In this document: piece by piece, positions 1,442 to 22,200 of the stretch
How the letters are laid out: every line of letters starts with the position of its first letter
Numbering within the stretch: the first letter of the stretch is position 1
Virus record (IMG/VR): IMGVR_UViG_3300030099_007307
Location: 1,981-28,792 of that record
Source of the DNA: a virus
Direction: 5' to 3' (one strand)
DNA length: 26,812 nucleotides
Program-made: the position numbers and the translations under genes
Notes under the pieces: model-generated
Seen by the model: the letters and a program-made list of their open reading frames with translations, nothing else
Told to the model about the DNA's origin: nothing
The model's database searches: none

Positions 1442-1642
1442 TTATTGGCAATGGTAGTTTAAGTACCTTTGAAGTGCTTTAGCGAAATGAGTTCCTTTGT
1501 TTTTCAATTTAGACTTTTCTTTTCTAACTTTAGAGCAAGAAAGTTTACCTAAACGTTTTTTCAATATACCTGGTTTTACAGGATCATGTGGTCCTTCATA
1601 AAGGACTTCTAATATTATTTCTTTTAGATCTTTTTTATTCAT
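1442..1642 (-). CDS. Small basic phage protein ending in an RYLNYHC-type motif
   Basis: This 66-residue protein is strongly basic. Its N-terminus (MNKKDLKEIILEVLYEG) contains ILE and LYE, both compatible with (I/L)xE prohead protease sites. A Lys/Arg-rich body follows (PGILKKRLGKL, CSKVRKEKSKLKNKG). The end, HFAKALQRYLNYHC, I recall as a recurrent C-terminal module in marine T4-like phage proteins of unknown function. A nucleic-acid-binding or head-internal role is plausible from charge alone. The start overlaps the 3' end of the lipoprotein gene by 8 nt, which suggests translational coupling. It is the last gene of the unit that begins at 3519. Confidence 0.75.
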   Translation of the reverse strand: MNKKDLKEIILEVLYEGPHDPVKPGILKKRLGKLSCSKVRKEKSKLKNKGTHFAKALQRYLNYHCQ

Positions 1643-2189
1643 CTTTTATTCTTATATTAATATCGTGAGGAGCATATTCGTTACCACCAAAATAAGGGTA
1701 TAAATAATACCTTCTTATCAAACCCCAGTATCCGTCTGGTCTCCTTCTAACTAATGTTGTATCATCATCTATTACTATTTGATAATTAAACGTAGTAATA
1801 TTAATTACAGCATTATATATTTCATTTATTTCTATATTTCTAATCTTGGCTGAGCTATGTCTCCCTTCTTCATGTCTTAACCAGCATAATTCAATCTTAC
1901 CATCAATATACCTCCAACCTAATCTTATAGAGTATTTTTGATGTATTTTACCAAAATCACTAAATCCATAAATCTTATTTACGTCATATTGATTCTCAGG
2001 AATCTCTGTTTGGTAAATAGCAGATTCATCAAGCATAAATTTAAACTCTATTCTAGAATTATCAGGATGATTAAAAAATGTTCCTGAGCTATGCTCTCCT
2101 TCTGGAATAGTATATATTCTAAATCCTAAATCATCCACTTCTTTAGTGCAACCCATGCATAGAAGTATGATTAAGGCTATACGCTTCAT
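1635..2189 (-). CDS. Putative phage-encoded lipoprotein, unknown beta-rich domain
   Basis: The 184-residue product starts with a short lipoprotein signal: Lys-Arg, a hydrophobic stretch and a lipobox-like LCMGC, giving Cys14 as the likely acylated residue. The mature start TKEVDD is acidic, a trait of many exported Bacteroidota lipoproteins. The body alternates polar and aromatic residues and looks beta-rich. It ends with LYPYFGGNEYAPHDI, which recalls lectin- or concanavalin-like jelly-roll domains, but I cannot assign a family. Roles to consider are an outer-membrane lysis component (o-spanin-like), superinfection exclusion, or host surface modification. The neighbouring coiled-coil/membrane protein (3163-3519) makes a lysis link worth testing. 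The gene begins 1 nt after the stop of the upstream gene. Confidence 0.7.
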   Translation of the reverse strand: MKRIALIILLCMGCTKEVDDLGFRIYTIPEGEHSSGTFFNHPDNSRIEFKFMLDESAIYQTEIPENQYDVNKIYGFSDFGKIHQKYSIRLGWRYIDGKIELCWLRHEEGRHSSAKIRNIEINEIYNAVINITTFNYQIVIDDDTTLVRRRPDGYWGLIRRYYLYPYFGGNEYAPHDINIRIKDE

Positions 2190-2190
2190 A

Positions 2191-2388
2191 TTACAAAGCG
2201 TTTCTTTTCTCTAATTCTAATTTTATAACCCTCCTTTTTCTTTTCATAGTAGGGCTGTTATAATATTTTAATAAATCTTTTGTAGCAGTACTAGCAACAG
2301 TATAGTGCTTCCATTCCCATTTAGTAGTTAATCTACCATTACGGTCTCTTTTATATTCTTTAGTACTTGGTTTTAATTTAGGAGCCAT
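2191..2388 (-). CDS. Small conserved basic phage protein (MAPKLKPSTKEY type)
   Basis: The likely start is the ATG at 2386-2388, giving a 65-residue protein beginning MAPKLKPSTKEYKRDRNG. It overlaps the upstream stop as TAATG, the same coupling used elsewhere in this cluster. An in-frame ATG 18 nt further upstream is less likely, because the MxPKLKPSTKEY start is the one I remember from small cyanophage and marine myophage proteins. The body has KWEWKHY, a helical segment, and a basic end (MKRKRRVIKLELEKR). It has no enzymatic motif. The charge suggests nucleic-acid binding or a head-internal role. Function unknown. Confidence 0.7.
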   Translation of the reverse strand: MAPKLKPSTKEYKRDRNGRLTTKWEWKHYTVASTATKDLLKYYNSPTMKRKRRVIKLELEKRNAL

Positions 2389-3017
2389 TATTTTTCTTTC
2401 TTCCAAATTTCACCTCTTCTACATCTAACTACAGCTCCTGAGGCATAAGCTGATGGCCATGTATCGTATTTTCTTTTTGCAATTCTAGTACATCTATCGT
2501 CTTTCTTTTCATCTAAAATTTCTTTACCTTCATGTACCATTCCTACTACTAAGTTTGTAAGATCTTCTTTTGTTATTTTTTTATAACCAGATCCATATGG
2601 TGCTGCTTTATCATTATGGTTAGGAGCTACATTTTCTCCTTTTAATGCCTTACCTGCTTTTTTAGCGTTTTTGTAAGCATTTGAATTTCCATGAGATGAT
2701 TTTTTACCTGCTTTTTTCTTAGCATTAATATTAGCCCAAAGGCCTTCTTTTTTTACTGTTGCTTTTTTAGTATTTTTCACGACTGTTTTTCCTTTAGCTC
2801 CTGCTTTCTTTTTCTTTTGAGCAGTAGCAGCCCTTTGGCTTTTAGTTAGACTTTGTGCTTTTGCTTTTGGTAAACATCTGTCAGGGTTCTTTTTATTTTT
2901 TGAAGTACCACAAGGACCTGCAATGTTACCAGAGGGTGATATACGTACCCATTTTTCCTTTTTAAACCAATCTCTTAATGATTCTTTTACTATTTTAGTT
3001 AACGTATCTTTTTTCAT
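2388..3017 (-). CDS. Lys/Ala-rich multi-domain phage protein with leader-like N-terminus
   Basis: This 209-residue protein is exceptionally rich in Lys, Ala and Gly. Residues 1-18 (MKKDTLTKIVKESLRDWF) form a leader with IVKE at 9-12, compatible with a prohead-type cleavage site. Residues ~22-75 hold a small domain with GPCGTSKNKK and a second Cys at 48, of a type I recall in cyanophage and algal-virus proteins. Residues ~76-145 are low-complexity and lysine-rich. A second leader-like helix (KEDLTNLVVGMVHEG) sits at ~150-164. The end (DRCTRIAKRKYDTWPSAYASGAVVRCR) is another recurrent short phage module. The composition fits a DNA-associated internal head protein; this is inference. Its ATG overlaps the stop of the 49-aa gene (ATGA). 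Confidence 0.75.
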   Translation of the reverse strand: MKKDTLTKIVKESLRDWFKKEKWVRISPSGNIAGPCGTSKNKKNPDRCLPKAKAQSLTKSQRAATAQKKKKAGAKGKTVVKNTKKATVKKEGLWANINAKKKAGKKSSHGNSNAYKNAKKAGKALKGENVAPNHNDKAAPYGSGYKKITKEDLTNLVVGMVHEGKEILDEKKDDRCTRIAKRKYDTWPSAYASGAVVRCRRGEIWKKEK

Positions 3018-3163
3018 TGTGCTGGCATTTCTAAGAATAGAGCGTATGCTTTATGCTTTGCATTTTTATTAAGTAACCTTCTTTCTTTTACTATAGGTTC
3101 TTCTTTTTTATCTTCTGTCCAATATTTTGGATTTTTACTATTTAATTTTCTCTTCTTCGGCAT
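3014..3163 (-). CDS. 49-aa basic phage protein
   Basis: This short frame runs from ATG at 3161-3163 to TGA at 3014-3016. It begins MPKKRKLNSKNPKYW and ends LFLEMPAQ. Translation is supported by context: the start overlaps the upstream stop as TAATG, the stop overlaps the next start as ATGA, and it fills an otherwise empty 145-nt gap exactly. The protein is basic and probably helical, with no recognised domain. Function unknown. Confidence 0.7.
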   Translation of the reverse strand: MPKKRKLNSKNPKYWTEDKKEEPIVKERRLLNKNAKHKAYALFLEMPAQ

Positions 3164-3519
3164 TAGTTTAATTTTATAACTTCAGATAGTAATTTAATAA
3201 CAACACCTGCAAGAACTGTGAAAATAATCCAAAGTGCTTTTTGTACACTATTCTTCCATTTTTTTAATTCTTCTACCTCTGCCATTTTAGCAGTAAAATC
3301 TTTATCTCCAGCTTCCATTTTTTTTCTAAAAGCTGAATTCATATTAGTTTTAACAATTACCCCGTCTTCAGGGTTTAGTAGAGTGTATTTTAAATCAGAC
3401 ATATCGTCTTTTAACTCTTTAACATCTTTAACCATAGCCTTGAGTTCTCCATTAGGCATATGTTTTTTAATGTGTACTAACTCATTAAGTACAGATTCTA
3501 GTAGCTGTTTTTGTGTCAT
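3163..3519 (-). CDS. Coiled-coil protein with C-terminal membrane helix (XhlA/holin-like)
   Basis: The 118-residue product has a helical N-terminus (MTQKQLLESVLNEL, with VLNE at 10-13), then a charged coiled-coil-like region (LKAMVKDVKELKDDMSDLK). One predicted membrane helix (ALWIIFTVLAGVVIKLL) lies at ~94-111, followed by a short tail. Coiled coil plus a single C-terminal helix is the architecture of XhlA-type small phage proteins linked to holins and lysis. Similar short proteins also occur as tail or membrane-anchoring factors. No endolysin is adjacent, so the lysis role is only a suggestion. The leader resembles that of the putative internal proteins, although a membrane helix is unusual for one. 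It is the first gene after a promoter-like element. Confidence 0.65.
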   Translation of the reverse strand: MTQKQLLESVLNELVHIKKHMPNGELKAMVKDVKELKDDMSDLKYTLLNPEDGVIVKTNMNSAFRKKMEAGDKDFTAKMAEVEELKKWKNSVQKALWIIFTVLAGVVIKLLSEVIKLN

Positions 3520-3551
3520 TACTTAAGTATCTAGTTTACTATATATCTATA

Positions 3552-3581
3552 AATATATACTAATCCAGCTTAGTCTTTAAA
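3552..3581 (-). promoter_or_regulatory. Promoter-like element TTTA-N20-TATATT
   Basis: The minus strand has TATATTTATAG with its first six bases at 3552-3557, 32 nt before the start codon at 3519. The -33 position (3578-3581) reads TTTA, a weak match. The -7 sequence is the same as at 4752-4757, which is the main support. The upstream gene ends at 3560, so the -33 box lies inside that coding region. Confidence 0.35.
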
Positions 3582-4135
3582 AAACTTATAGTCTCTTTGA
3601 GTTCTTTTGTATAACGGTTTTTTACTTCTTTAGAATTAGATTTCCAACTCTCTATATCTCCTTGTTCGGTAACATAAGTAGCATCTATATCATTTTCAAC
3701 TTCAACGATTAATTCCTCCATAGCTTTTATGAAATACTTAGCATTTCCTTTTTGTTTAGCTCTTAGGTATTGTTCTAAATGTCCACTTCTTTTTAGTTCC
3801 CCAACGAAAGTAGTATAGCAATCAAAACACATTTTAGATTTTTTATATGTTTCTTTACTTAAATAATATGATAAGGATCCATGGCATTTAGGACAACAAA
3901 GAGGTATTTTGACTGCATCCTTAGCTGAGTCAAACTTGGTAACGTTCTGTTTTATTCCGTCTTTGATAGTCCATGTTTTATTATTTTCTTCCCATATATC
4001 TCCTTCTTTATAATCTTTGATAATCTTTTTGTATCCAGTTTGAGATTTAGTACCAGCTGTATAATCTTTTTTGATAAGATTACGCATCCTTTCTACATCA
4101 GCTTTCTTAAATTCTTTTTTTAACTGGCTACTCAT
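3560..4135 (-). CDS. Conserved phage protein with a C4 zinc-ribbon
   Basis: The 191-residue protein has an N-terminal segment (FKKADVERMRNLI) and a GDIWEE...WTIKDGIKQNVTK element that I recall from hypothetical proteins of cyanophages and other T4-like marine phages. A zinc-ribbon-like site follows: CPKC at 81-84 and CFDC at 103-106. The C-terminal third is helical and charged. The Cys pairs suggest zinc binding and possibly nucleic-acid or protein contacts. No catalytic motif is visible. It is coupled to the HAD gene by an 8-nt overlap (ATGAGTAG). Function unknown. Confidence 0.75.
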   Translation of the reverse strand: MSSQLKKEFKKADVERMRNLIKKDYTAGTKSQTGYKKIIKDYKEGDIWEENNKTWTIKDGIKQNVTKFDSAKDAVKIPLCCPKCHGSLSYYLSKETYKKSKMCFDCYTTFVGELKRSGHLEQYLRAKQKGNAKYFIKAMEELIVEVENDIDATYVTEQGDIESWKSNSKEVKNRYTKELKETISFLKTKLD

Positions 4136-4718
4136 ATCCTAATTCTTTTAATCCATCTAATGCTGGTCCTATATCTCCATCCTTAACTCTAAATGCAATA
4201 CCTCCTGCTGCTTGCCATTCTTCAATATTTGATTTTTTATCATCTATTAAAATGCTATTTTCGTTAGCGTAGTTTTGTTTGTTAGCTGAGTATGCAAAAA
4301 TAACTTTAGGTTTAGGGGATAAGTTATTTCTTACCCATAAATTTTTTCCTAATCTAGAAGTATTATCTCTAGAAGGAGAAGTTAATAAAGATGGATTATA
4401 TTTTGAAATGAAGCTCCATAATTGTTTTCCATCTGGCATCCAATCCATTCCCACCCAAAATGAAACTCCTACGGTTTGGTCAATAAATTTCCAAAATTCA
4501 TCTAAACCAAAAATATTTTCAAAATCTTGAGGTTTATTAATTTTTTTGATATCTTTTAATGGATAGTAATCTGGTCCTATTTCGTTAACTTTTTCGTAAA
4601 AACGTTTTTCAAAATTAGTTAAAACTCCATCCATATCACAATAGATTTTATATTTAGAAGTTTTTTCTTCGACAGTTGGATGATACGCCTCCAATAATTC
4701 CACAATACTTGTACTCAT
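4128..4718 (-). CDS. HAD-superfamily phosphatase, 5'(3')-deoxyribonucleotidase-like
   Basis: The 196-residue protein carries HAD motifs in order. Motif I is DMDGVLT (28-34), with the nucleophile and acid/base aspartates. Motif II is LLTSPS (111-116). A Lys-containing segment (KPKVIFAYSANKQNY) follows, and motif IV is ILIDDKKSNIEEW (156-168). DMDGVLxxF plus a C-terminal IDD fits the 5'(3')-nucleotidase branch, which dephosphorylates (deoxy)nucleoside monophosphates, though substrate cannot be fixed from sequence. The ~20 residues before the fold (MSTSIVELLEAYHPTVEEK) are not part of a minimal HAD domain, and LLE at 8-10 matches a prohead-type cleavage site. The protein may therefore be a packaged enzyme rather than only a cytoplasmic nucleotide scavenger. 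It is first in its unit, behind a promoter-like element. Confidence 0.82.
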   Translation of the reverse strand: MSTSIVELLEAYHPTVEEKTSKYKIYCDMDGVLTNFEKRFYEKVNEIGPDYYPLKDIKKINKPQDFENIFGLDEFWKFIDQTVGVSFWVGMDWMPDGKQLWSFISKYNPSLLTSPSRDNTSRLGKNLWVRNNLSPKPKVIFAYSANKQNYANENSILIDDKKSNIEEWQAAGGIAFRVKDGDIGPALDGLKELGYE

Positions 4719-4751
4719 AACCTTTATTTTTAGTGTATAATACTCTCTATA

Positions 4752-4781
4752 AATATACGAACTTTCATGCTATTTTCCAAC
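4752..4781 (-). promoter_or_regulatory. Promoter-like element GTTG-N20-TATATT
   Basis: On the minus strand GTTG (4778-4781) is followed by 20 nt ending in TTCG and then TATATTTATAG (six-base core 4752-4757), 33 nt before the start of the HAD gene. GTTG overlaps the upstream stop codon as TAGTTG, exactly as at 12780-12785. TTCG-TATATT is shared with the element upstream of the primase gene. TATATTTA is close to the Bacteroidota -7 consensus TAnnTTTG. Confidence 0.55.
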
Positions 4782-6352
4782 TACTTTTTAGAGTTTTTTA
4801 GACGTTGAGTTTTCTTTTTAGAAGCTTCTTTACGTTTTTTAATATATTCAAATCCAGCTTTTAATTTCTTTTTCTTAGCTGGATCTTTAGTTCTTCCTAA
4901 AGCTGCTCTTACTCTTTGATGTATTAAGTTTATTATTTGAGACTGTCTAGCATGTGATTTAGCTTTGAATGACTTTTTATTTAACGTATCCACTATATCT
5001 TGTCTAGTTGAAAATTTTACTCCTACAGTATCTTTAGGATCTTCATCGGTATATAATCTTCTGCTTGAACCTTTAGGTTTTTTACCTGTTCCTTTTTTTG
5101 GTTCATTATTTTCTTTTAATATAGTTGTACCGGAATAAAATTCATTACTTTCACTAAGCAACGTACCTTCATTCTTCAAAGAATCTTCCCAATTTCGGAA
5201 TGTAATATTTCCTAGTAAATAAGCTTCTTTTTCTAACTCTTCTAAATTTTCGTCTTCATTGGTATTAGTAGTTGTAATGTTCTTTAATCTTCCTTCTAAG
5301 TTTTGCATATGATGAATCATTTCATGAGCACAAGATCTTACTATATCTTTAGGATGCCTATTATAAGTGTATAATGCTACTTTTTTATCAGAAGGAGAGT
5401 AATAAGCAGTTCTACCGAAAAAATTTGCTGCATTTATTTTATCTTTTATAGTTACTATTTCAGGTAATGGTAAGATATTCATTTTTTGATCCAGCATATA
5501 TTCTAATAAAGACGCAATATAATCTTTTAGTTCAATATTAGGAACAGTCTGTTCTCCTATTGGTAGATCGTACTTAACTATTATTTTATCATCTATCAAA
5601 TCTATATTTGTACCTTGAGGTATTAAATTTACAAGGTAGTTATATAAGTTAACAAGTCTATTTCTATCAACTGATCTAATAGCGGTGGACCTTTCATCAA
5701 TAGTTGGTTTATCGAAATAATTATCTATAAAACCTTCTAAATTATTAGATAAAATTTCTGCAACTATTGTATCTTTTAAATCAGTTAATATATTTAAAAT
5801 TTGTTCTTTAGATAAATCTTCAGGAAAAAAATCTAATACTTTATCTAAATTGCCAGATAATATATTGTTACGAAAATCTGTTGCTCTAATTCCTGAACCT
5901 GGTGCTGCTGCAAGGGCAAGTCCTTTGACGTTAGGAGCATTTTTATATGTAGTTACTCTTCTTAAATCTACAAAATCTTTTTCTCCTCTGATACCGGTTA
6001 CTGAAACAAACTCTTCTTCAGGATTAGATTGTGCAAAATCTTTTGCAGCAAACATTGGATTATTACCACCATCTAAAATTTCTATATCTCCAAGGTATTG
6101 AGAATATACTTCCCATATAGACATCGATTCTTCTTTAGTTATACCGTTTCTCTCACCTGCTCCTACAAAAACTATAACCTTATCTATTTTAGGTTTTTTA
6201 TTACTGTTGCCACTAAGTAACGAAGCTCCTGTTTCTTTATAGTTATCTTTGTCGTATATGCTTCCATTATAAGATCCGTCAAGTAATGACTTAACTACAT
6301 TGAAATGACCTCTATGAGGTGGTTTAAAAGCTCCTGGGTATAATGCTATCAT
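4781..6352 (-). CDS. Fusion: HxGH nucleotidyltransferase, HExxH metallopeptidase, basic C-terminal domain
   Basis: The 523-residue product has three parts. Residues ~1-165 form a cytidylyltransferase-like domain: GAFKPPHRGH (7-16) holds the HxGH signature, and SGIRATDFR (153-161) fits the second nucleotide-binding motif. This fold includes NMN adenylyltransferase and phosphopantetheine adenylyltransferase; the substrate here is unknown. Residues ~300-390 hold a zinc-peptidase-like site, CAHEMIHHMQ with HExxH at 343-347, and a downstream EKEAYLLGN that could give the third ligand. Residues ~430-523 form a very basic domain (DEDPKDTVGVKF, then many Lys/Arg) that I recall at the C-terminus of other marine phage proteins. 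ILKE at 411-414 sits in the linker before the basic domain and equals the leader end seen elsewhere. It is coupled to the P-loop kinase gene by ATGA. Confidence 0.8.
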   Translation of the reverse strand: MIALYPGAFKPPHRGHFNVVKSLLDGSYNGSIYDKDNYKETGASLLSGNSNKKPKIDKVIVFVGAGERNGITKEESMSIWEVYSQYLGDIEILDGGNNPMFAAKDFAQSNPEEEFVSVTGIRGEKDFVDLRRVTTYKNAPNVKGLALAAAPGSGIRATDFRNNILSGNLDKVLDFFPEDLSKEQILNILTDLKDTIVAEILSNNLEGFIDNYFDKPTIDERSTAIRSVDRNRLVNLYNYLVNLIPQGTNIDLIDDKIIVKYDLPIGEQTVPNIELKDYIASLLEYMLDQKMNILPLPEIVTIKDKINAANFFGRTAYYSPSDKKVALYTYNRHPKDIVRSCAHEMIHHMQNLEGRLKNITTTNTNEDENLEELEKEAYLLGNITFRNWEDSLKNEGTLLSESNEFYSGTTILKENNEPKKGTGKKPKGSSRRLYTDEDPKDTVGVKFSTRQDIVDTLNKKSFKAKSHARQSQIINLIHQRVRAALGRTKDPAKKKKLKAGFEYIKKRKEASKKKTQRLKNSKK

Positions 6353-7278
6353 GCTAAAAATGCTTGTACTTTTTTATCTATTTCTTTTACGTCAGAATGT
6401 TTAAGAAGTTCTTGAAATTCAGCACTAAATAACATTTCTGCTATATTTTCTATAACTTCGTCATTTTGAAATTCTAATTTTTCTTTTTTTTCTCTATATT
6501 TTTTTACTGCATCTCTTAATTTGTCATCTCCTGGTCCTACTCCGTTGTTTTTGAATGTCTTTAAAAATGCTTGTTTTACAGCTTTATCTTCAGATCTACT
6601 ACTTTTATCATAATCTACATCTACTACTGCTTGATTGAAAGCATCTTCTTCTTCTTTAGACATTACGACCGGTGAAAAAAATGAAGAACCTTCTATATTA
6701 TTCTTTTCATTGTAAACTTTTAAATAATCTTTTATACCAGCTACCCCTTTTTCAGCAGCTTTATTAAAATCTTCTATTTCTTTATTGTACTTGCCGCCTC
6801 TATCACTAACAAATATAGATAAATTATCTCCTAACATATCTCTATACTGACCTATAAGTTGATAGACATTCCTCCAGGTTTTAAATACTGCCACTGCAGG
6901 TAGTGCTCTATTTCTGCTGAAGTTTGAAGCGTAAGATATCATTGGATGAGCATATACCATTATCATGTAAACATCATATCCTTGATCTAGCAGATTTTTT
7001 ACTTTAGAAGGATTAGAGGCTGTTGTATCCCAAACAAAACTAGTTTTTTCCTTTGCTGCCGCCGCTACGTCCTTGCCCACTTGAATTGATGCTGGACCTA
7101 GTTTGTTGTAGTACGGGTGTTCCGGATCCTCCACGTATTTGTCTGGGTTGAACTGGTCTAGAGTAGATAGGTTTAGTTGGTTGAGAAGGTACGATTTGCC
7201 TACTCCACCTCCCCCAGCCATTACTACTGCTTTGGGGTTTCCAGTTTGCTCCGTTATTAGGCTTAATAATTCTATCAT
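6349..7278 (-). CDS. P-loop kinase, zeta-toxin-like
   Basis: The 309-residue protein has a Walker A loop AGGGGVGKS (21-29) and a following FNPDKYVED. A WDTTASNPSKV segment leads into a hydrophobic strand (VYMIMVYAHP), and an Arg-rich helix region (FSRNRALP) precedes a DNLSIFVSDRGG strand. This order fits the zeta-toxin/AAA_33-type kinases that phosphorylate small molecules or nucleotide sugars; the substrate is not predictable. The C-terminal ~110 residues are charged and helical. The N-terminus MIELLSLITEQ resembles T4 Alt (MELITELFDE...) and offers LITE as a prohead-type site. The first 239 nt are also the 3' end of the lipoprotein gene in another frame. A start at Met20 would remove the leader but still leave a long overlap. 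Confidence 0.8.
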   Translation of the reverse strand: MIELLSLITEQTGNPKAVVMAGGGGVGKSYLLNQLNLSTLDQFNPDKYVEDPEHPYYNKLGPASIQVGKDVAAAAKEKTSFVWDTTASNPSKVKNLLDQGYDVYMIMVYAHPMISYASNFSRNRALPAVAVFKTWRNVYQLIGQYRDMLGDNLSIFVSDRGGKYNKEIEDFNKAAEKGVAGIKDYLKVYNEKNNIEGSSFFSPVVMSKEEEDAFNQAVVDVDYDKSSRSEDKAVKQAFLKTFKNNGVGPGDDKLRDAVKKYREKKEKLEFQNDEVIENIAEMLFSAEFQELLKHSDVKEIDKKVQAFLA

Positions 7279-7873
7279 TGTTATTACTTAATATAAGTGG
7301 TTTATTATAATTAGTTGGTTTAATTGTGTTTCTTACTATTCTATTTACTTGAAGTCTGTTTTCTATATTTCTTGTGTTTCTGTATCCATTAATGTAAGAT
7401 ACATTGCTATACCTACTGCTGTTCCATATAACGTTGTAACTTTGATTATTAAAAGGTCCTTGATACCAAGAAACTTGATAGTAAGGACTATGATACCACG
7501 GTCTCCACCATCTATTTCCGTACCAAGAGTAAGAATTCCATCCCCAGTAATTCCAAACATCCCATCTATTCCAATAAAAATCCCATGAATTATAAAAACC
7601 TCGATTCCATAATCTATTAGACCAGTAAAAGTCTCTATACCAGTGGTAGTCTTGATTTAAGAGGTAACTTTGGTAATCCCAAGCAAATCTAGAATCAGTT
7701 CTTAATTTCCATTTAAATTCAGATAGTGTAAGGGTGTCAACTGATTGTTGAAAATTAGGTACACTTCTTAAAGTATCTACTTGACTTGCGGTATTTAATG
7801 TACTATACTGCCACTGTACTCCACAGCTTGAAATAAAAATTACTGCAATAATTAATGCAAATACCTTCTTCAT
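7040..7873 (-). CDS. Trp/Tyr-rich putative lipoprotein, 3' end overlapping the next gene
   Basis: The 277-residue product begins MKKVFALIIAVIFISSCG, a clear lipoprotein signal with lipobox ISSC and Cys17 as the acylated residue. Residues ~65-165 are extraordinarily rich in Trp, Tyr, Asn and Arg (stretches such as DFYWNRWDVWNYWGW). The last ~80 residues are Ser/Gly/Pro/Arg-rich and probably disordered. I recall similar Trp/Tyr-rich lipoproteins with low-complexity tails in Bacteroidota chromosomes, so this may be host-derived and expressed on the infected cell. Function unknown; superinfection exclusion or envelope modification are candidates. The C-terminal 239 nt are shared, in a different frame, with the start of the P-loop kinase gene. 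The gene follows the nuclease gene by 3 nt. Confidence 0.75.
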   Translation of the reverse strand: MKKVFALIIAVIFISSCGVQWQYSTLNTASQVDTLRSVPNFQQSVDTLTLSEFKWKLRTDSRFAWDYQSYLLNQDYHWYRDFYWSNRLWNRGFYNSWDFYWNRWDVWNYWGWNSYSWYGNRWWRPWYHSPYYQVSWYQGPFNNQSYNVIWNSSRYSNVSYINGYRNTRNIENRLQVNRIVRNTIKPTNYNKPLILSNNNDRIIKPNNGANWKPQSSSNGWGRWSRQIVPSQPTKPIYSRPVQPRQIRGGSGTPVLQQTRSSINSSGQGRSGGSKGKN

Positions 7874-7876
7874 ACA

Positions 7877-8659
7877 TTATATTTTGAGAGTTGTTGGGTA
7901 ACTATTATAAATAGGTTCAACAGTAGGGTTTTCCAAAGAATATAATTTATAAATCATTTCAAATAATTTAAAATTTTTCTTGATTTCATCAATTTCTAAT
8001 AATTTCCAACCTTTACCTTGCATAGTCTTACCGTTCTTAGCTGGACCTCTTGAATGAGCTTTTAACCATACTATACCTGTTCTATCTATTTTTATACCTC
8101 TAGATTCTTCTAAAGCTGTAGCATATGAAGCTAATTGAAGATCGTATGATTTATGAATACTGTTAGAAGTTTTAATATCTAATAACCAAGTCTCATTATT
8201 TAATTTACAAACTATATCTGCTGTACCAGCATACTTATGTTTATCAGACCATACAAATTCTTCAGAAGATATAAGCTCAGGTTTGTAAGTATTCCAAAAC
8301 TCATAAAATTTAAGAATCATTTCCCATACTATTTGAGAATATCTTGCATTACCGTATTCATCCATCCAAGATACTTCTTCTCCTAATATCAACTTTTCAC
8401 AAGCTTCATGCACTTGGGTACCCTGTTTACCTGCTCTTTTCATAATAAGATCAGCGTTATGCCCAACGTCTTTAAGCCAAGACTCAAAAAACTTATTCTT
8501 GGGCATATACTGGAGTATAGTAGTTACGGACGGGTAGTATACTCCTTCGCTTCTCTTATAAACTCTTCTATCTAAAAAATTAATCTGCTTAAGTTCAGGA
8601 TTAAAATCTAATCTTTTCTTTTTATTCTGATCAAGAATATTCATTCCTTGTTTTATCAT
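7877..8659 (-). CDS. PD-(D/E)XK (RecB/Cas4-like) exonuclease
   Basis: The 260-residue protein shows the RecB-family nuclease signature: RAGKQGTQVHE with His84, GTAD with Asp148, DIKT (161-164) with catalytic Asp and Lys, and QLASY (175-179) as the QxxxY motif. An upstream PSVTTIL is also typical of this phage nuclease group. Such enzymes process DNA ends during phage recombination, repair or replication. No Cys cluster is visible, so it lacks the Cas4 iron-sulfur site. It is coupled to the primase gene by ATGA, supporting a replication/recombination role. An alternative start at Met6 is possible, but the ATGA junction favours the first Met. Confidence 0.87.
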   Translation of the reverse strand: MIKQGMNILDQNKKKRLDFNPELKQINFLDRRVYKRSEGVYYPSVTTILQYMPKNKFFESWLKDVGHNADLIMKRAGKQGTQVHEACEKLILGEEVSWMDEYGNARYSQIVWEMILKFYEFWNTYKPELISSEEFVWSDKHKYAGTADIVCKLNNETWLLDIKTSNSIHKSYDLQLASYATALEESRGIKIDRTGIVWLKAHSRGPAKNGKTMQGKGWKLLEIDEIKKNFKLFEMIYKLYSLENPTVEPIYNSYPTTLKI

Positions 8660-9579
8660 AGGTCTAGTTTGTGCAGCATTAGACCAGACAAGTCTAATTC
8701 TTCTGCTTGTTGTATGTGTTTAGTAAATGCCTTAAAACCCATTTCAGATGGATCTTTATCTTTCATATTAACTAGAAAGACTTTCTTACCTTGATTTAAA
8801 AATTTTTCTGCTATCTCTAATGCTTCACTCTGTGCATCTAAATCTAAAGCAATATAGATATCAGTTAGTTTACTTGTAATTATTTTTTTATATAAGCTTG
8901 TTGAAATATTTTTACCTAATAAAGGTATCGCATTCCTTCTGATAGCTATTGCATCAAATACTCCTTCACAAAGTATTATAGGAGCGTTCCAATTAATAAG
9001 ATTTTCAAAAAATATTATGTCTTTTGATACTTCCGGATTTTTGTATTTAAAGTAGTTGCCATCATAAGCTCTTCCAACAAAATAGTTGAGCCTATTGGAT
9101 TCAGAATAACTTGGGAGTATAACTCTTCCTCCATAGTCTCCAGTTGTACAGTATCCAATACTATATTTAATAAAATCATTGTCGTTAAATCCTCTGTCAT
9201 ATAAATACTTTTTAACTAAATTAGCAATAACTGAAGTTTGAGAAGCTGAATATAAAGGTTGGTATTCTTTCGGCAGCTCTATTATAGATAGCTGTTTATA
9301 TTCTATTTGTGCTCCTTGTGGAAGATACTTTAATATCTCTGCAGCTTCATTTCTTGGTGTTCTTAACTGCTTAAGGAGAGAACGAATAGTTCTTCCTTTA
9401 GTTTGACATACCCAACATTCCCAAGGATTATGTCCTTGTTCATTAGTAGCCATATTTATTTCAAGCTTCTTTTTTCTATGATTGCAAAAAGGGCAATGAA
9501 ATGCATAATTGTCTCTAGCTTTTTTTGAACTTTTTCCTAAGATATTTTCAATAGAGCCTAGTAAGAAGGTATATTCCAT
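8656..9579 (-). CDS. DNA primase, zinc-finger plus Toprim (T4 gp61-like)
   Basis: The ~307-residue protein has an N-terminal zinc-binding domain (CPFC at 29-32, CWVC at 55-58) for template recognition. A Toprim catalytic domain follows: CEGVFDAIA with the conserved Glu near 204, ALDLDA with the DxD aspartates near 245-247, and KDPSEMG with a third acidic position. This is the layout of DnaG-type phage primases that make RNA primers for lagging-strand synthesis. The length is close to T4 gp61, and no helicase domain is fused, so a separate helicase partner is expected elsewhere in the genome. It is the first gene of its unit, behind a strong promoter-like element, and coupled to the PD-(D/E)XK nuclease gene. 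Confidence 0.87.
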   Translation of the reverse strand: MEYTFLLGSIENILGKSSKKARDNYAFHCPFCNHRKKKLEINMATNEQGHNPWECWVCQTKGRTIRSLLKQLRTPRNEAAEILKYLPQGAQIEYKQLSIIELPKEYQPLYSASQTSVIANLVKKYLYDRGFNDNDFIKYSIGYCTTGDYGGRVILPSYSESNRLNYFVGRAYDGNYFKYKNPEVSKDIIFFENLINWNAPIILCEGVFDAIAIRRNAIPLLGKNISTSLYKKIITSKLTDIYIALDLDAQSEALEIAEKFLNQGKKVFLVNMKDKDPSEMGFKAFTKHIQQAEELDLSGLMLHKLDL

Positions 9580-9604
9580 ACAGTATGTCCGTAACTAATA
9601 ATAT

Positions 9605-9634
9605 AATATACGAAAAAATATTTTAAATATCAAC
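9605..9634 (-). promoter_or_regulatory. Promoter-like element GTTG-N20-TATATT upstream of primase
   Basis: On the minus strand GTTG (9631-9634) is followed by 20 nt ending TTCG and then TATATTAT (core 9605-9610), 25 nt before the primase start. The boxes, the spacing and the TTCG next to the -7 core match the element at 4752-4781. GTTG lies within the last codons of the kinase-like gene. Confidence 0.55.
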
Positions 9635-10051
9635 TAATTTAAGGTGATTTTTTTGGTTAACCATCACGTTTGATGGTCTTATGTCTAACTCATCAGGCGA
9701 AATACCAAATCTTTTTGCTTCATTTTCTGTTGCTTCTATCCATTCTTCAGGTATCTCTCCTTTGAATTCTCCTAAAACTTCCATTTGAATAATTCCTAAT
9801 TTTTCATTTATTTCTTCAACATCATATATATGAGCAAAGTTATTAGTTTTCTTACCTTTAAGTATATGTGCATGTTCTAATTCTACAGAGTCAGTAGTAA
9901 CCTTATAAACTCTACCATTAAGCAAGTAAGCAGAACCGTAATCTCCAGAACCTAAATATTTACCGCCTTGATCCTTTACTCTTTCAACTTCTCTTTCAAA
10001 ATCTGGATCATAATAAAGAATTTCTCCTAATATTACGTGCGATAACCTCAT
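9623..10051 (-). CDS. Minimal protein-kinase-like protein
   Basis: The 142-residue protein carries ordered elements of the protein kinase/aminoglycoside phosphotransferase fold. GSGDYGSAY (34-42) matches the Gly-rich loop, VYKVT (48-52) the ATP-contacting Lys50, and MEVL (90-93) the hinge. DIRPSNVMV (123-131) matches the catalytic loop DxxxxN, and LVDI at the very end supplies a DFG-like Asp141. The chain stops one residue later, so the activation segment and most of the C-lobe are absent; kinases are usually ~250 residues or more. Whether it is active is open. The leader MRLSHVILGE matches the capsid-targeting-like leaders of its neighbours. It is last in the unit starting at 12746, 3 nt after the upstream stop. 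Confidence 0.72.
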   Translation of the reverse strand: MRLSHVILGEILYYDPDFEREVERVKDQGGKYLGSGDYGSAYLLNGRVYKVTTDSVELEHAHILKGKKTNNFAHIYDVEEINEKLGIIQMEVLGEFKGEIPEEWIEATENEAKRFGISPDELDIRPSNVMVNQKNHLKLVDI

Positions 10052-10054
10052 GAT

Positions 10055-10402
10055 TTATAAATTAAATGTAAATTTTATTTTAGGAAAATAATCTCTTTCT
10101 CCGATTTCTCTTTCATAATAGTTAGTAGATTGATCTTCTATTACTTCATATCCATTTGAAGCAACTATTTCTTTTGCTTTTTTAAAATCGTCTTCAGGTA
10201 AATCATCTCTATAGAAAAATGTTATAGAACCAAATCCTTTTCCTAACCTTGGATCATTCTTTGCTCTATTTTGATCATAGGCTTGCATAAAGCCATGTAC
10301 TCTATAAGTTTGACTTAGCAAACTAGATAATTCTTTTTCAAGCTTTTTAACTTCAGCTTTATACTCTCCATATTCGTTTAATAATACATTTGATAGTTTC
10401 AT
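10055..10402 (-). CDS. 115-aa phage protein with MKLSNVLLNE leader
   Basis: The protein starts with MKLSNVLLNEYGEY, almost the same leader as two genes upstream in this unit, with LLNE at 7-10 as a candidate cleavage site. A short coiled-coil-like helix follows (AEVKKLEKELSSLL). The rest is a small alpha/beta domain with FGSITFFY, a helix DDFKKAKEIVASNG, and a beta-rich end KIKFTFNL. I do not recognise the family. The strand-helix-strand ending could be a ferredoxin-like fold, which is a guess. Its start overlaps the stop of the cupin-like gene (ATGA). Confidence 0.75.
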   Translation of the reverse strand: MKLSNVLLNEYGEYKAEVKKLEKELSSLLSQTYRVHGFMQAYDQNRAKNDPRLGKGFGSITFFYRDDLPEDDFKKAKEIVASNGYEVIEDQSTNYYEREIGERDYFPKIKFTFNL

Positions 10403-10674
10403 TTTTTTTCTATTTTAAGAGTTAAATTACCTGTTCCTTTTATTAATCGGTGATATACCCCCTTTGGTATAAATAGCTCAGACTCTTGTAAAGAAACGGG
10501 GAGTTCGTTATCGAATTGGAATTGCCAGTCAGTTTTGTGAAGTGATTTAATATAACGATCTTCTCGATCTCTATGCCATACAAACTCTTCTTCGTCTGTG
10601 TGTTGATCGAAATGTCTTATATTACCGTTGTCTACGTACGGTCTACCAGTATCCTGAGAAGTTTCTTTTTCCAC
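10399..10674 (-). CDS. Small cupin-like protein (HRDREDR type)
   Basis: The ~91-residue product has FDQHTDEEEFVWHRDRED, then beta-strand-like segments and IPKGVYHRLIKGTGNL. The His/Glu-rich first part and the IPKGxxH second part fit the two conserved motifs of a single-domain cupin, a small metal-binding beta-barrel. I recall short proteins of this type in cyanophages, where the function is unknown. The only plausible start is a GTG at 10672-10674, since no in-frame ATG exists. It overlaps the end of the upstream gene by 32 nt, so the exact N-terminus is less certain than the body. The substrate or ligand cannot be predicted. Confidence 0.72.
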   Translation of the reverse strand: MEKETSQDTGRPYVDNGNIRHFDQHTDEEEFVWHRDREDRYIKSLHKTDWQFQFDNELPVSLQESELFIPKGVYHRLIKGTGNLTLKIEKK

Positions 10675-11188
10675 CTAATGATTTCCAATAACGTCCAATA
10701 TTACAAGCCCAGTAACCTGGTTTTGTTTTATCTTTTTTCTGTGCACATTTATGACGTGCTGCAAATGATGCTCTAGCTCCAGGTTCATCTATCTTTACAT
10801 TTAAACCTGTTGTACCTCCGAAAGATACTTTAACAACATTTCCTTTTTTATTTTTAGTATAAACAACAAACTTTTTAGAACCTCCTCTTTTTGGTTTATT
10901 TAAAGCAACTTTCTTACCTCTATATTCAGCTTCTTTTAACATAGGTAAATCTAAAGGTACTTTTGTTCCTTCGTATGTTCCATACAATCCAATATCAGTC
11001 GACTCTATTAATTGAGTATCTTCTTCGTTTAGTTCAATATAACCGTCTCTCCACAATTCTCTTGCTTCAGCAAATAGTTGTATAAAGCTTTCGCTAGAAT
11101 AACGGTAGACATTCTCATGTAAGGTAAGACCATTATCTAAATGGTACTGTAATGATGGTAATCCTATTATATTTTTTATCTGTAACAT
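10643..11188 (-). CDS. Conserved two-domain phage protein with basic C-terminal domain
   Basis: The 181-residue protein has two clear parts. Residues ~10-82 include LQYHLDNGLTLHENVYRYSS, a helix LFAEARELW, and IGLYGTYEGTKVPLDLPM, a domain I recall as widespread in cyanophages and other T4-like marine phages. Residues ~90-181 are basic: KRGGSKKFVVYTKNKKGNV, KVSFG, then ARHKCAQKKDKTKPGYWAC. This is another recurrent phage module with conserved Cys and Trp. LKE at 84-86 lies at the junction of the two parts, a possible prohead protease site. The function of either domain is unknown to me; charge suggests DNA contact. It begins 1 nt after the upstream stop. Confidence 0.78.
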   Translation of the reverse strand: MLQIKNIIGLPSLQYHLDNGLTLHENVYRYSSESFIQLFAEARELWRDGYIELNEEDTQLIESTDIGLYGTYEGTKVPLDLPMLKEAEYRGKKVALNKPKRGGSKKFVVYTKNKKGNVVKVSFGGTTGLNVKIDEPGARASFAARHKCAQKKDKTKPGYWACNIGRYWKSLGGKRNFSGYW

Positions 11189-11189
11189 A

Positions 11190-11843
11190 TTATCTAGCGT
11201 TCAAATAATTACTAATTCTTTTGATAGCATAATCATCTCCATAATTACCTGCCATCCAGTTGTTATGAATATAGTAAATTACATCTTCAAATCTATCTTT
11301 ATTTAATCTAGGACCTGCCTTTATTAAATCTTCCATTTTTTGATCATAGCCATCATCTAACTCATCAAATGCCTCAGTTACATTTTCGTCCATTTCAGGG
11401 TGAAATAATAATTTTATTTTTTTAGCATCTTTAGAAACTGATTTACCATCTATCTCTACTTCGATAGGATAAGGTTCAAATTTTCCTGCCCAATATGCTA
11501 CGTCGTAACTTTTATCTTTATTATTAGTAACAAGTAAACCTCTATTGTAAGTATCTTCTTCTGCTTGAAGTACCATTTCTTTTCCTATAGGTAAAATAAC
11601 ATCACCCATAAGCTTGATATTATTTTTTTCATAATTGTCGCCGTGACTTTCTTCTTTGACAGAGCGATCTACTTTACTCATATTCCATTTGTGTATAAAA
11701 TCTACAGCTTCATCTCTATTAAGTCCAAACTCTTTCATAAAGTCTGCAACGTCAATAGTACGTTTGTTATGATTTAAATCATCTAAGAAATTGATCATTC
11801 TTTTTTCAACCCCTTCTTTTAATATAATATCAGTTAGTTTCAT
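11190..11843 (-). CDS. 217-aa phage protein with MKLTDIILKE leader
   Basis: The start is placed at the ATG at 11841-11843, one base after the upstream TAA (TAACATG). That Met begins MKLTDIILKEGVEK, nearly identical to the leader of the preceding gene. A longer frame to 11912 would overlap the upstream gene by 68 nt and bury the leader. After ILKE (7-10) come a helical segment (ADFMKEFGLNRDEAVDFIHKW) that could be a small helix-turn-helix, a beta-rich central part (GKFEPYPIEVEIDG), and an acidic helical end. No catalytic motif is visible. Function unknown. Confidence 0.78.
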   Translation of the reverse strand: MKLTDIILKEGVEKRMINFLDDLNHNKRTIDVADFMKEFGLNRDEAVDFIHKWNMSKVDRSVKEESHGDNYEKNNIKLMGDVILPIGKEMVLQAEEDTYNRGLLVTNNKDKSYDVAYWAGKFEPYPIEVEIDGKSVSKDAKKIKLLFHPEMDENVTEAFDELDDGYDQKMEDLIKAGPRLNKDRFEDVIYYIHNNWMAGNYGDDYAIKRISNYLNAR

Positions 11844-11844
11844 G

Positions 11845-12270
11845 TTATGCGATTGCTTTAGCGTATCTTTCTTGCCATTCTTGAGATATCGAGTCTTTTT
11901 CAATAGGACCACCCTTTGCCCATGTTCTACAGCTTCTGGCTGAGTGACATTTAAAATGATGCATCCAGCAGTAACCTAATCTACCGTCTTTGTCTGAAGT
12001 AACTCCTGGCATACACTCGTCCATTCTTGGTGAAATATCAAAAGCTACACAATTGCTGCATTTAGATAAAAGAGCTGCTTTAACTTCTGTGTTCCAATAA
12101 TCAGCTATGTCTTTCCAAAAACTTCCAGGCTCATCAACGTTCAAAGGTCCATATTGTATATGTTCTGCTTTTATAGCTGCATCTCTGTTTTTAGTGTTAA
12201 GCATTAAATCTTGAGTAGCTGCAGGGCAAGATTTATTGTTTTCCTTTAATATAATATCTCTTAATTTCAT
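11845..12270 (-). CDS. Cys-rich putative metal/Fe-S-binding phage protein with MKLRDIILKE leader
   Basis: The 141-residue protein begins MKLRDIILKENNKSCPAA, with ILKE at 7-10. The remainder contains CSNCVAFD, a further Cys in DECMPG, GYCWMHHFKC, and SCRTWAKGGPI. This CxxC ... C ... YC ... C ... C..W spacing is that of a small cysteine-rich domain I recall in cyanophages and pelagiphages, sometimes described as high-potential iron-sulfur protein-like. Metal or Fe-S binding is likely; a redox role is not established. If the leader acts as a capsid-targeting peptide, the mature protein would start at Asn11. The start overlaps the stop of the GIY-YIG gene (ATGA). Confidence 0.78.
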   Translation of the reverse strand: MKLRDIILKENNKSCPAATQDLMLNTKNRDAAIKAEHIQYGPLNVDEPGSFWKDIADYWNTEVKAALLSKCSNCVAFDISPRMDECMPGVTSDKDGRLGYCWMHHFKCHSARSCRTWAKGGPIEKDSISQEWQERYAKAIA

Positions 12271-19208: not shown

Positions 19209-22200
19209 TTATTTACCATTATGAGATAAAATACCATTACTTATATACGTATGTGTCTTTTCAGTTGTTAGTTCTATTACTTCACCATCAGGATATGCTT
19301 CAACTGAAGTAATTGTTTTCTCAGAAATTATATCGCCTTCATTTAATGTATCTACAGCAATGAAATCATCTAAACTATCTAAATACACTCTGTGTTTAGT
19401 GGAAGTTATTAGGTACGTACCATCTTCTAATGTAATTTTAATTTTCTTAACATTGTCAGTACTAGAAATTTTAATTACTATATCTTCTAGCATTTCTTTT
19501 GAATATTCATGTTTACTTCTTATAACATCCCCTACCTTTAGATCTTTTGCTGACTTAGTTAAACCAGTTTTCATTAAAACTTGAGTATCAGGGTCTACAC
19601 AGGTGCTAGGAGGAGCCTGTGTAATAAGTAGATCAGGGTGACTAACACCTCCTGATATTATAGGAAAATTATACTCAAAAGCATCATCTGAAATTAATCT
19701 ATGTACTGAATAAGTAGTACTTCGTGCACTAGATCCAGTATGTTCTTGTAATTCTATTTGAGCTGATGTATCCCCCTGTAGTATATCAGTGCTGTACCCG
19801 CCGTCGGTAGTTACAAAATTTGCCCAACCAACACTAGGGTCTTCTTGAATATTACCGTTAGTATTACTTGCCCAACCTACAACAACTAAACTCGCAGTTT
19901 GTGCAGCACTAGTATATGTTTGATCAACTATTCTACTTCCGCCAGCGTATCCTCTATATTCGAAAAGATGAGGGTAATAAGGTACTGATGCAGATACTAC
20001 CTCCCCGCTACTTCCTTGAGGGTCGGTGAACCATACAAAAGCTCCTACTGTATTACCTACACCGGTATTATTAGGTGCGTTTGACCATGATGCACCGGAT
20101 CCTGTATTACTTATAGCATAAGCTGAACTATCATTATAAACTATACTTGCTGTTCCAGGATTAACTCCTGAACCACTAGATATAGATATATTATTAGAAA
20201 TAATTGAAGTACCTGCATGTGAACCGGATAATTGATAATTAAGAGTACCTGTAAAACTAGGATTATAATGTACAATTATACAGTATTTAGCAGTAACATT
20301 TAGACTTTGAGATTTTGCAGTCGCAGAAATAGCATTTAAGTCTTCATTTATTCTAAAAGTTCCTTCATGAATACTGTAACCTGAAGGTCCTACAGTTTGT
20401 TTATGAATAGTTAACCCAAAATTACCAGCCCCTTGTGTAGCTGTTGCTAAGCTTCCGGTATTACCAGCTGCATCTCTTAATTTTAAAGCTAGAGTAATAT
20501 CATCACCGTCACTTAAACTACTTAAATTAGCAGTAAAAGTAAAAGCACCTCCTGAAGCGCCAGTAGCATACTCCTCTTTAACATCATTACCACTTTCGTC
20601 TGATGCTGTAATGAAAACTGTTGCGTTTGCTTCTACGGTTCCGTCTATTCCTGCAGTAACTGCTGTTACATTATTTGCAGTTATAGCTGATACTTTCCAA
20701 GCTGCTGTATAACCTGAAGGTGCTGTAGTATCTAAAGTGCTACAAGCGACTATATTATACAATTGTCCTGGTTGATTAGAAGCAGAAACTTGAGCAGTAA
20801 AACTTGTAGTTATTCCGTTTACTGTAACTCCGAATGAAATATGATCAGAATTAGTTAATGAAGTAACAGGTGTTGTAGCATTAATGTCTGAGTAAAGTAT
20901 ATCTCCGTCTACAGGTACTGCTGCACTTCCACCATGATAAAACGTTAATGTGCTTGATGGAGAAAAAGCAGTACATGCATTAGCACCTCCAGTGTAAGAT
21001 TCAGGATTAGCACCATTATTCATTACTAAAATAGGAAATAATGCATCAGATATACTTTGATTTACTGTAGTAATATGAAATAAAGTTTCTGGGTGCTGAT
21101 TTCTTTTGAAAGGATTTTCATCATTTAATTCACCGTCTGTTATTAACATACCACTTCCGCTTAATTCTCCATTAAATTTAGGAGATTCATCACCTACTAG
21201 TTTCATTACTGATCCACTCATAGTTTCAATGTCTTTAGAGTAGAAAGTAGTATCATTAATTTGGCTATAAGTTTTAAAGTTATCTTCTCCTCCAATAAAA
21301 TCAGTAGCTGGATAATCTGGGTTTAAAATTCCATTTGTGTATAAGTTTGGGTTAACATACAAAGGCCAGTTACCTCTCAGACCTGCGTTTCTCTGCTGTA
21401 AAATTACTGTATCATTTCTAACTACTGTCGTGCTGATTGAGCAAGTAACTCCGTTGTTATACGTTGATCCAAAAGCAAGGGAATCATTCAAAGCAGCAGC
21501 AAAATTTGCTGTTCTATCTGTTACAGTGCCTCCATCAGCATCAAACCTGGAAGCACCGTTAGACATATCGTATGCTGAAGTATTTGAAGCATCGATTCTC
21601 CTACCAACTGAAGAACCTGATAGTTGCTGTGAACCAGTTATAATAAATCCAGGACCTGTAGCGGTTCCTCCTGAACCTGTTTGAAATACAAGTATAGCAG
21701 AAGCAGTGATTGGGGTATTTTTAACATACCCTGCTAATGATTGATAAAATCTATACCTTTCATCTTTTATACCGAAAGAAGAGCCTGTTGTTTGGAAAGC
21801 TGCTAGTAACACATCGTTAGGAAGTGGATCGAAAGATTGACTGTTAGCACTTGAATTACCTCTAGCTACCCAGGAGTTTTGTCCATGGGGACTATAATCT
21901 ACTGTTATAATGTGTGTATGCTGCCAATCAGTTAAGGAACCTCCAGAATTGTTTACGTCTAAGGACGGAAACCTTTCAAAAATTGATTCTGAAGAAAACA
22001 TTACGTAAAACTTGTCACTACTTCCGGTATTTTCCCCGTAAGGTGTCATTAGTTGTTTACTTTTATCTTGTTTAGTTTCTCTAATATTATAATAGGTACC
22101 GTCAGGGTGATAAAAATCATTACCTTCAACGATTATCTCTCCTTCATCTCCTTGATTAGTATCAGTTCTATAGTCAACTCTAAACTGTAAATCTGAATAT

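Follow-up and report, generated by a model that had tools for sequence, protein, structure and literature searches.

Introduction

The internal proteins of T-even phages have diverse bodies, and their N-terminal capsid-targeting sequence (CTS) alone is conserved (PMC3012670). In the leader of T4 IPIII, residues 4 and 7 serve targeting and residues 8 and 10 processing, and reviews have suggested the CTS as a general loading route for varied proteins in T4-like phages (PMC9026906). Here, we analyze short N-terminal leaders encoded in a 26.8-kb stretch of DNA (26,812 nucleotides, the window) out of the 28,792-base virus record IMGVR_UViG_3300030099_007307. The original prediction was that nine proteins of this DNA begin with a short amphipathic leader ending in hydrophobic-x-Glu, and that a Bacteroidota phage packages them as a capsid-targeted set of injected effectors. 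Each of the nine starts was confirmed, all of them on the minus strand (12270, 11843, 10402, 10051, 7278, 4718, 3519, 3017 and 1642), and the leaders are, as judged from sequence comparison, very probably T4-type CTS.

Like the T4 CTS (IPI, IPII, IPIII and Alt, and the propeptides of gp22 and gp24), these leaders are N-terminal, 9-13 residues long, hydrophobic at P7, P4 and P3, end in Glu at P1 and are joined to unrelated bodies. A gp21-type protease, a gp22-type scaffold and a gp23 capsid occur in the same phages, and ADP-ribosyltransferase-type cargo is predicted here as well. Unlike in T4, where the leader reads MKTYQEFIAE, the consensus of this phage group is MKLSxIILE and MKKSxLxxIIKE; at least 33 cargo families are found as compared to about 4 in T4, and they include superoxide dismutase (SOD), a Zeta-type kinase and a nucleotidase, which are not reported from T4. 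The ejection proteins of SPN3US and phiKZ also carry N-terminal propeptides, which a T4-related protease cleaves behind a Glu (PMC5694885), but these are mostly longer than 100 residues, end in A-X-E or S/A/G-X-E and share no short leader, which separates them from leaders of 9-13 residues with (I/L/V)-X-E. In DarB of phage P1, an N-terminal stretch suffices for a foreign protein to be taken up by the head (PMC9024508), but no leader similarity has been reported, and the capsid and protease are of another type. The concept is already known; what this analysis adds is a different consensus, the large number of cargo families, the enzymes among them and the power to predict cargo in uncultured Bacteroidota phages.

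The phage and its gene order

The record is a fragment of a T4-type phage genome. The primase of the window is 64% identical to its counterpart in the Flavobacterium phages vB_FspM_immuto (immuto), and 78-99% identical to the 80 best marine viral contigs. For comparison, the annotated 160-kb genome of immuto and a related 176-kb contig (G001) were used. Immuto and G001 share the gene order of the window and run from the tail fibres through a GIY-YIG-like gene, the leader genes, the primase, the exonuclease, kinase, nucleotidyltransferase and nucleotidase genes and the large terminase to portal gp20, protease gp21, scaffold and capsid gp23. By this gene order and the primase identity, the window phage is identified as a T4-type myophage related to immuto, with most likely a member of the Bacteroidota as host. 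The predicted host group was thus right, as the closest isolates grow on Flavobacterium.

The leader is enriched and recurs at the start of unrelated proteins

Genes were called in 93 sources and their bodies clustered, and a leader profile anchored on the Glu was trained on 21 families. Training left out the window, immuto and G001 as well as the family of whichever protein was being tested, and T4 was never included. At a score of at least 8, 7 of the 28 window proteins were recovered, while 0.4 were expected from shuffled N-termini and 0.03 from internal segments; at a score of at least 6, the count was 9 as compared to 1.2 and 0.26, respectively. Eight of the nine named leaders reach 6, the ninth protein above this value (3560) not being one of them. 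The weakest named leader, MSTSIVELLE, stays below 6, yet 91% of its relatives keep a leader. The enrichment over shuffled controls, which had been proposed as a test, was also obtained in immuto (11 proteins at a score of at least 8; 2.6 shuffled, 0.9 internal) and G001 (10; 1.7 and 1.6). When one protein per body cluster was counted, 20 were observed and 1.24 expected.

Viral contigs were searched with a degenerate DNA pattern encoding MKL[S..][N/D/S/G][I/V]ILE, and the same codons in permuted order served as control. The "MKLSNIILE" pattern was present in at least 120 viral contigs, the control in 3. In 84 of 85 distinct proteins, the leader is preceded by an in-frame stop within 21 codons, and the motif is therefore located at protein starts. 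With two patterns, the strict MKL-class leader was found on at least 33 body families without mutual similarity detectable by BLAST.

In an AT-rich phage, N-termini with many Lys, Ile, Leu and Glu residues often resemble leaders, and chance could in principle produce such a set. In line with this, outside the head block N-termini fitting a loose, hand-made phi-x-E rule (phi, hydrophobic residue) are as frequent as in shuffled sequences, and a profile built from the nine window leaders alone gave no more than weak enrichment in immuto. The permuted-order control, the 7 window proteins where 0.4 were expected and the count of one protein per cluster argue against chance so strongly that we give it a negligible probability, and as the source of the whole leader set it is already refuted. 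The nine-leader profile was too weak genome-wide and was replaced by the 21-family profile; the hand-made rule misses the MKLxxIILKE form and was kept only for the block comparison described below.

The domains GLWANI and DRC..RRKYD are fused in the window protein 2388-3017, while they are separate, each with its own leader, in contig L058 and in immuto. In the protein 11190-11843, more than 50 extra residues lie between the leader and the NNIKLMGDVILPIGKEM core, where relatives read MKIKDILLEEYEKGNVKLMGDVILPIGKQM. Bodies evidently move relative to leaders, as read from these arrangements. Leader codons of ten genes in one relative (G004) differ freely, which favors selection on the peptide over recent duplication; recent copying of leader DNA among genes of one phage is therefore an unlikely origin. 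The comparison of leader and linker conservation within families was mixed, with the leader more conserved in small families such as 6, 12, 17 and 46 and less conserved in 9, 13 and 36, and was not used as evidence. In immuto, leaders are carried by gp095 (MKKSELVKLIKE), the kinase gp093 (MISIYNILKE) and the nucleotidase gp087 (MKKVMGNLADLLLE), and gp080 and gp082 also belong to the predicted cargo. A second leader class, MENFDLKKFLVENKLTxNSxLLKE, with phi-x-E sites, was seen on a number of unrelated proteins, some of them encoded next to gp21 (immuto record 103806, 117631, 118632, 125241 and 1803; contigs L093, L094, L097, L098 and L341).

The leader matches T4 head precursors and the sites of the gp21 protease

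When the 247 proteins of T4 were scanned with the leader profile, gp68, gp24 and gp22 were among the top 5 (p = 5e-4 against 10 gp21 substrates), and all three are gp21 substrates. Aligned on the Glu, the leaders have hydrophobic fractions of 1.0 at P3 (by definition), 0.84 at P4 and 0.73 at P7, while P5 (0.30), P6 (0.17) and P8 (0.27) are mostly polar. Residues Y4, F7, I8 and E10 of IPIII correspond to P7, P4, P3 and P1, so that the leaders are hydrophobic at both IPIII targeting positions, and the same pattern occurs in Alt and gp24.

The gene of the prohead protease (Peptidase_S77, T4 gp21) was found in contigs of 11 relatives and, as gp070, in immuto, while the window record itself holds no head genes. 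The propeptide of the protease in the clade of the window ends in (L/I)xE|S. The capsid precursor of relatives starts with MEINNLLE|S or MELNQLFE|G and has the sites NLLE|S, GLLE|G and IVAE|A, of which the last (IVSE|A in immuto) is located where T4 has the cut FLTE|A. Their scaffold starts with MANKDLFKQAIAE|A (T4 gp22: MLKEQLIAE|A), and genes adjoining gp21 start with MKLSELILE|S and MKLSQIIFE|N. The search for a protease with fitting sites, proposed together with the original prediction, thus turned out as anticipated, the protease's own sites and those of the capsid agreeing with the leader specificity. T4 gp2, the DNA-end protector (T4 record 76061-76885), starts with MAIFQIINES and has an I-N-E site like these leaders; we know of no listing of gp2 as a CTS protein.

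Genes with a leader are concentrated in one block, which has the tail fibres at one end and the capsid gene at the other, both in immuto (16 of 32 genes, 22 of 196 elsewhere; p = 1.6e-6) and in G001 (12 of 28, 22 of 163 elsewhere; p = 7e-4).

Enzymes carry the leader as an extra piece

Enzymes with known starts provide the cleanest sequence test of whether the leader is an extra piece. In relatives of the window phage, the Pfam domain of an Fe/Mn SOD begins at residue 12, after the leader MKLSKLILE|NK, while solved bacterial SOD start flush and their residue 2 aligns with residue 13 of the phage protein. PF00081 and PF02777 score over cut-off, and the His and Asp metal ligands are kept in the PDB alignment. 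The leader is present on 21 of 22 phage SOD copies examined, in several sequences (MKLSKLILE, MKMSDILLE, MKIKDILFE, MRFSKLSNIILE and NYSELSNLILE); the start of one copy (L327) is uncertain. The sole leaderless copy is on a 70-kb contig, possibly incomplete, on which neither gp21 nor gp23 was found. In G016, G017 and G021, which belong to another T4-like lineage, the leader-SOD directly follows the capsid gene, the order being gp21, scaffold, gp23, SOD.

These data bear on whether the leader might be an address for another site, such as the host membrane, the replication compartment or a chaperone like phage GroEL. N-terminal amphipathic helices are a common type of address, and immuto encodes GroEL and GroES. 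We consider this improbable, given that head precursors carry the same leader class, that the profile picks out T4 prohead proteins, that the SOD gene lies directly after gp23 in another lineage, and that neither gp21 nor gp23 is seen on the single contig whose SOD lacks a leader.

The window nucleotidase, an HAD-type 5'(3')-deoxyribonucleotidase (4128..4718, minus strand; leader MSTSIVELLE, 4689-4718), matches phrog_2643, with the alignment starting at residue 19 of the protein and position 3 of the profile, and had no match in a PDB sequence search. Relatives outside the T4 group (Atu_ph07 and OLIVR1) are leaderless and start flush with the catalytic domain, while those in the T4-like HTVC008M and Melnitz have an N-terminal extension with phi-x-E. 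The Zeta-toxin-type P-loop kinase (6349..7278, minus strand; leader MIELLSLITE, 7249-7278) scores 38.2 bits against Pfam Zeta_toxin (cut-off 22.3); its leader in relatives is MKLSDIILE or MIKLTDLILE, and no match was found among isolate phages. The minimal protein kinase-like protein of 142 aa (9623..10051, minus strand; leader MRLSHVILGE, 10022-10051, profile score 6.1) has weak HipA_2 and T7 kinase-like matches, with the invariants GSGDYG (glycine loop), K50, D123-x-R-P-x-N128 and D141. It stops right after the presumed metal-binding Asp (LKLVDI end), so that most of the C-lobe is missing, and the protein is conserved in 28 relatives. Its AlphaFold model is poor (pLDDT 59). For a cargo of 162 aa from a relative (L006:7178-7666), a model with a pLDDT of 80 was obtained. 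The top rows of VIA-align were almost all ADP-ribosyltransferase (ART) folds (RES/ParT toxins, Z 6.2-7.4; PARPs, 4-5), all Z being under 8, and Foldseek returned no significant match for this model. As modelled, this cargo has a probable ADP-ribosyltransferase fold which, if right, would repeat a theme of T4, where the CTS-tagged Alt is an ADP-ribosyltransferase.

The nature of this cargo also weighs on the idea that the leader docks proteins on the prohead core for head assembly or degradation there, like T4 gp67 and gp68, with no delivery to the host. The same leader on the scaffold, the capsid precursor and the gp21 neighbours fits this idea, as do several cargo families that are small, basic or helical and without known domains. 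Many bodies, however, are enzymes without a plausible assembly role (SOD with metal ligands, Zeta-type kinase, mini-kinase, nucleotidase and the probable ADP-ribosyltransferase fold), and Alt and IPI of T4, which belong to the same class, are known to enter the host (PMC3012670, PMC9026906). A role in assembly only is therefore regarded as unlikely.

Other leader genes and neighbors in the window

The remaining named leader genes are all on the minus strand. A Cys-rich protein of 141 aa (11845..12270) has the leader MKLRDIILKE (codons 12241-12270, score 9.9), and the 217-aa protein at 11190..11843 has MKLTDIILKE (11814-11843, score 11.4), its ATG being located within a longer GTG open reading frame (ORF). 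A protein of 115 aa (10055..10402) starts with MKLSNVLLNE (10373-10402, score 10.6), and its relatives form the largest family with the exact leader. The leader MTQKQLLESVLNE (3481-3519) of a coiled-coil or membrane-anchor-like protein of 118 aa (3163..3519) is kept in 37 of 37 relatives. The basic multi-domain protein of 209 aa (2388..3017) carries MKKDTLTKIVKE (2982-3017, score 12.1) and a second leader-like stretch inside, and a basic protein of 66 aa (1442..1642) carries MNKKDLKEIILE (1607-1642, score 10.7). For the latter, the predicted start stood, while the leader had been given only by its end; from the ATG, the protein reads MNKKDLKEIILEVLYE. A tenth leader gene (MHKLEKLILE) belongs to the same record but lies shortly beyond the edge of the window, near position 970 of the record.

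As originally claimed, the replication genes are free of the leader (primase 8656-9579, exonuclease 7877-8659), and so are the tail genes. Accessory genes within 1442-12270 also lack it, namely 2191, 3014, 3560, 4781, 10399 and 10643 and the lipoproteins at 1635 and 7040. The protein 10643-11188 (minus strand), present in nearly all relatives, starts with MLQIKNIIGLPSLQYHLDNGLTLHENVYRYSS and has a leader-like hydrophobic pattern with no early Glu; its relatives have phi-x-E sites further in (LTLSE). The nucleotidyltransferase-like protein 4781-6352 (minus strand; MIALYPGAFKPPHRGHF) contains a metalloprotease-like motif, HEMIHH, in its interior and has a basic tail, and is leaderless between two leader-bearing neighbors. 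A Trp/Tyr-rich lipoprotein ORF (7040-7873, minus strand; signal ending in ISSCG) overlaps the kinase gene 6349-7278 out of frame by 239 bases, and in G004 the two ORFs merely abut. A structural protein of 1938 aa (19209-25025, minus strand) has a C-terminal Hint/intein-like stretch (CVDPDTQVLMKTG...TYISNGILSHNGK); its residues 1809-1902 match a PHROG helicase profile, presumably via its intein.

Discussion

One leader, located N-terminally, is shared by many unrelated bodies, is present on head proteins and matches the residues of the T4 CTS. Packaging of leader proteins into the head is strongly supported by these sequence relations, and the claim of a packaged, capsid-targeted set was borne out at this level. 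We infer the following path. The leader would form a short amphipathic helix with P7, P4 and P3 on its hydrophobic face, which would dock the newly synthesized protein onto the gp22-type scaffold that forms the core of the growing prohead. The activated gp21-type protease would then cut after the Glu (P1) and free the body inside the head; such cleavage is quite probable by analogy to T4 and the matching sites. DNA would be packed around the freed body, which would be retained in the virion and leave with the DNA at infection. Delivery of the bodies into the host, again by analogy, is fairly likely. The description as an injected-effector set holds in part, as some leader proteins (the scaffold and the gp21 neighbors) are assembly components and not effectors.

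Several points weigh against T4-type capsid targeting, which is read here from sequence. Since phi-x-E N-termini outside the head block occur at the shuffled rate, single weak leaders are not trustworthy one by one. P2 is Leu in most MKL-class leaders and not in T4 leaders, and the gp21 gene lies outside the fragment holding the window, so that the specificity was taken from relatives. Internal phi-x-E sites in cargo bodies are only slightly rarer (0.92 of expected) than elsewhere (1.12), and the gene caller was home-made, with 181 of 212 immuto starts matching the annotation. A search of a literature library turned up no study of the virion proteome of immuto or HTVC008M, and no paper combining 'capsid targeting sequence' with metagenomics.

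Taken together, we lean towards a portable head-loading tag that occurs in at least two T4-like lineages on dozens of unrelated proteins, including stand-alone metabolic enzymes, and would deliver an exchangeable, ready-made enzyme set (SOD, kinases, nucleotidase and an ADP-ribosyltransferase-like protein) before phage gene expression. As the same 9-13 residues are joined to dozens of unrelated bodies, a lineage could swap its payload. While a handful of packaged proteins is known from T4, a readable leader here may predict the packaged set of a large group of marine phages from sequence, and this predicted set holds enzymes that are unexpected in a phage head. The question of what a phage injects besides DNA would become one of genome annotation, with a direct test possible in the existing isolate immuto. 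The leader may offer an initial role for many phage genes of unknown function and provide short tags for loading proteins into the heads of Bacteroidota phages.

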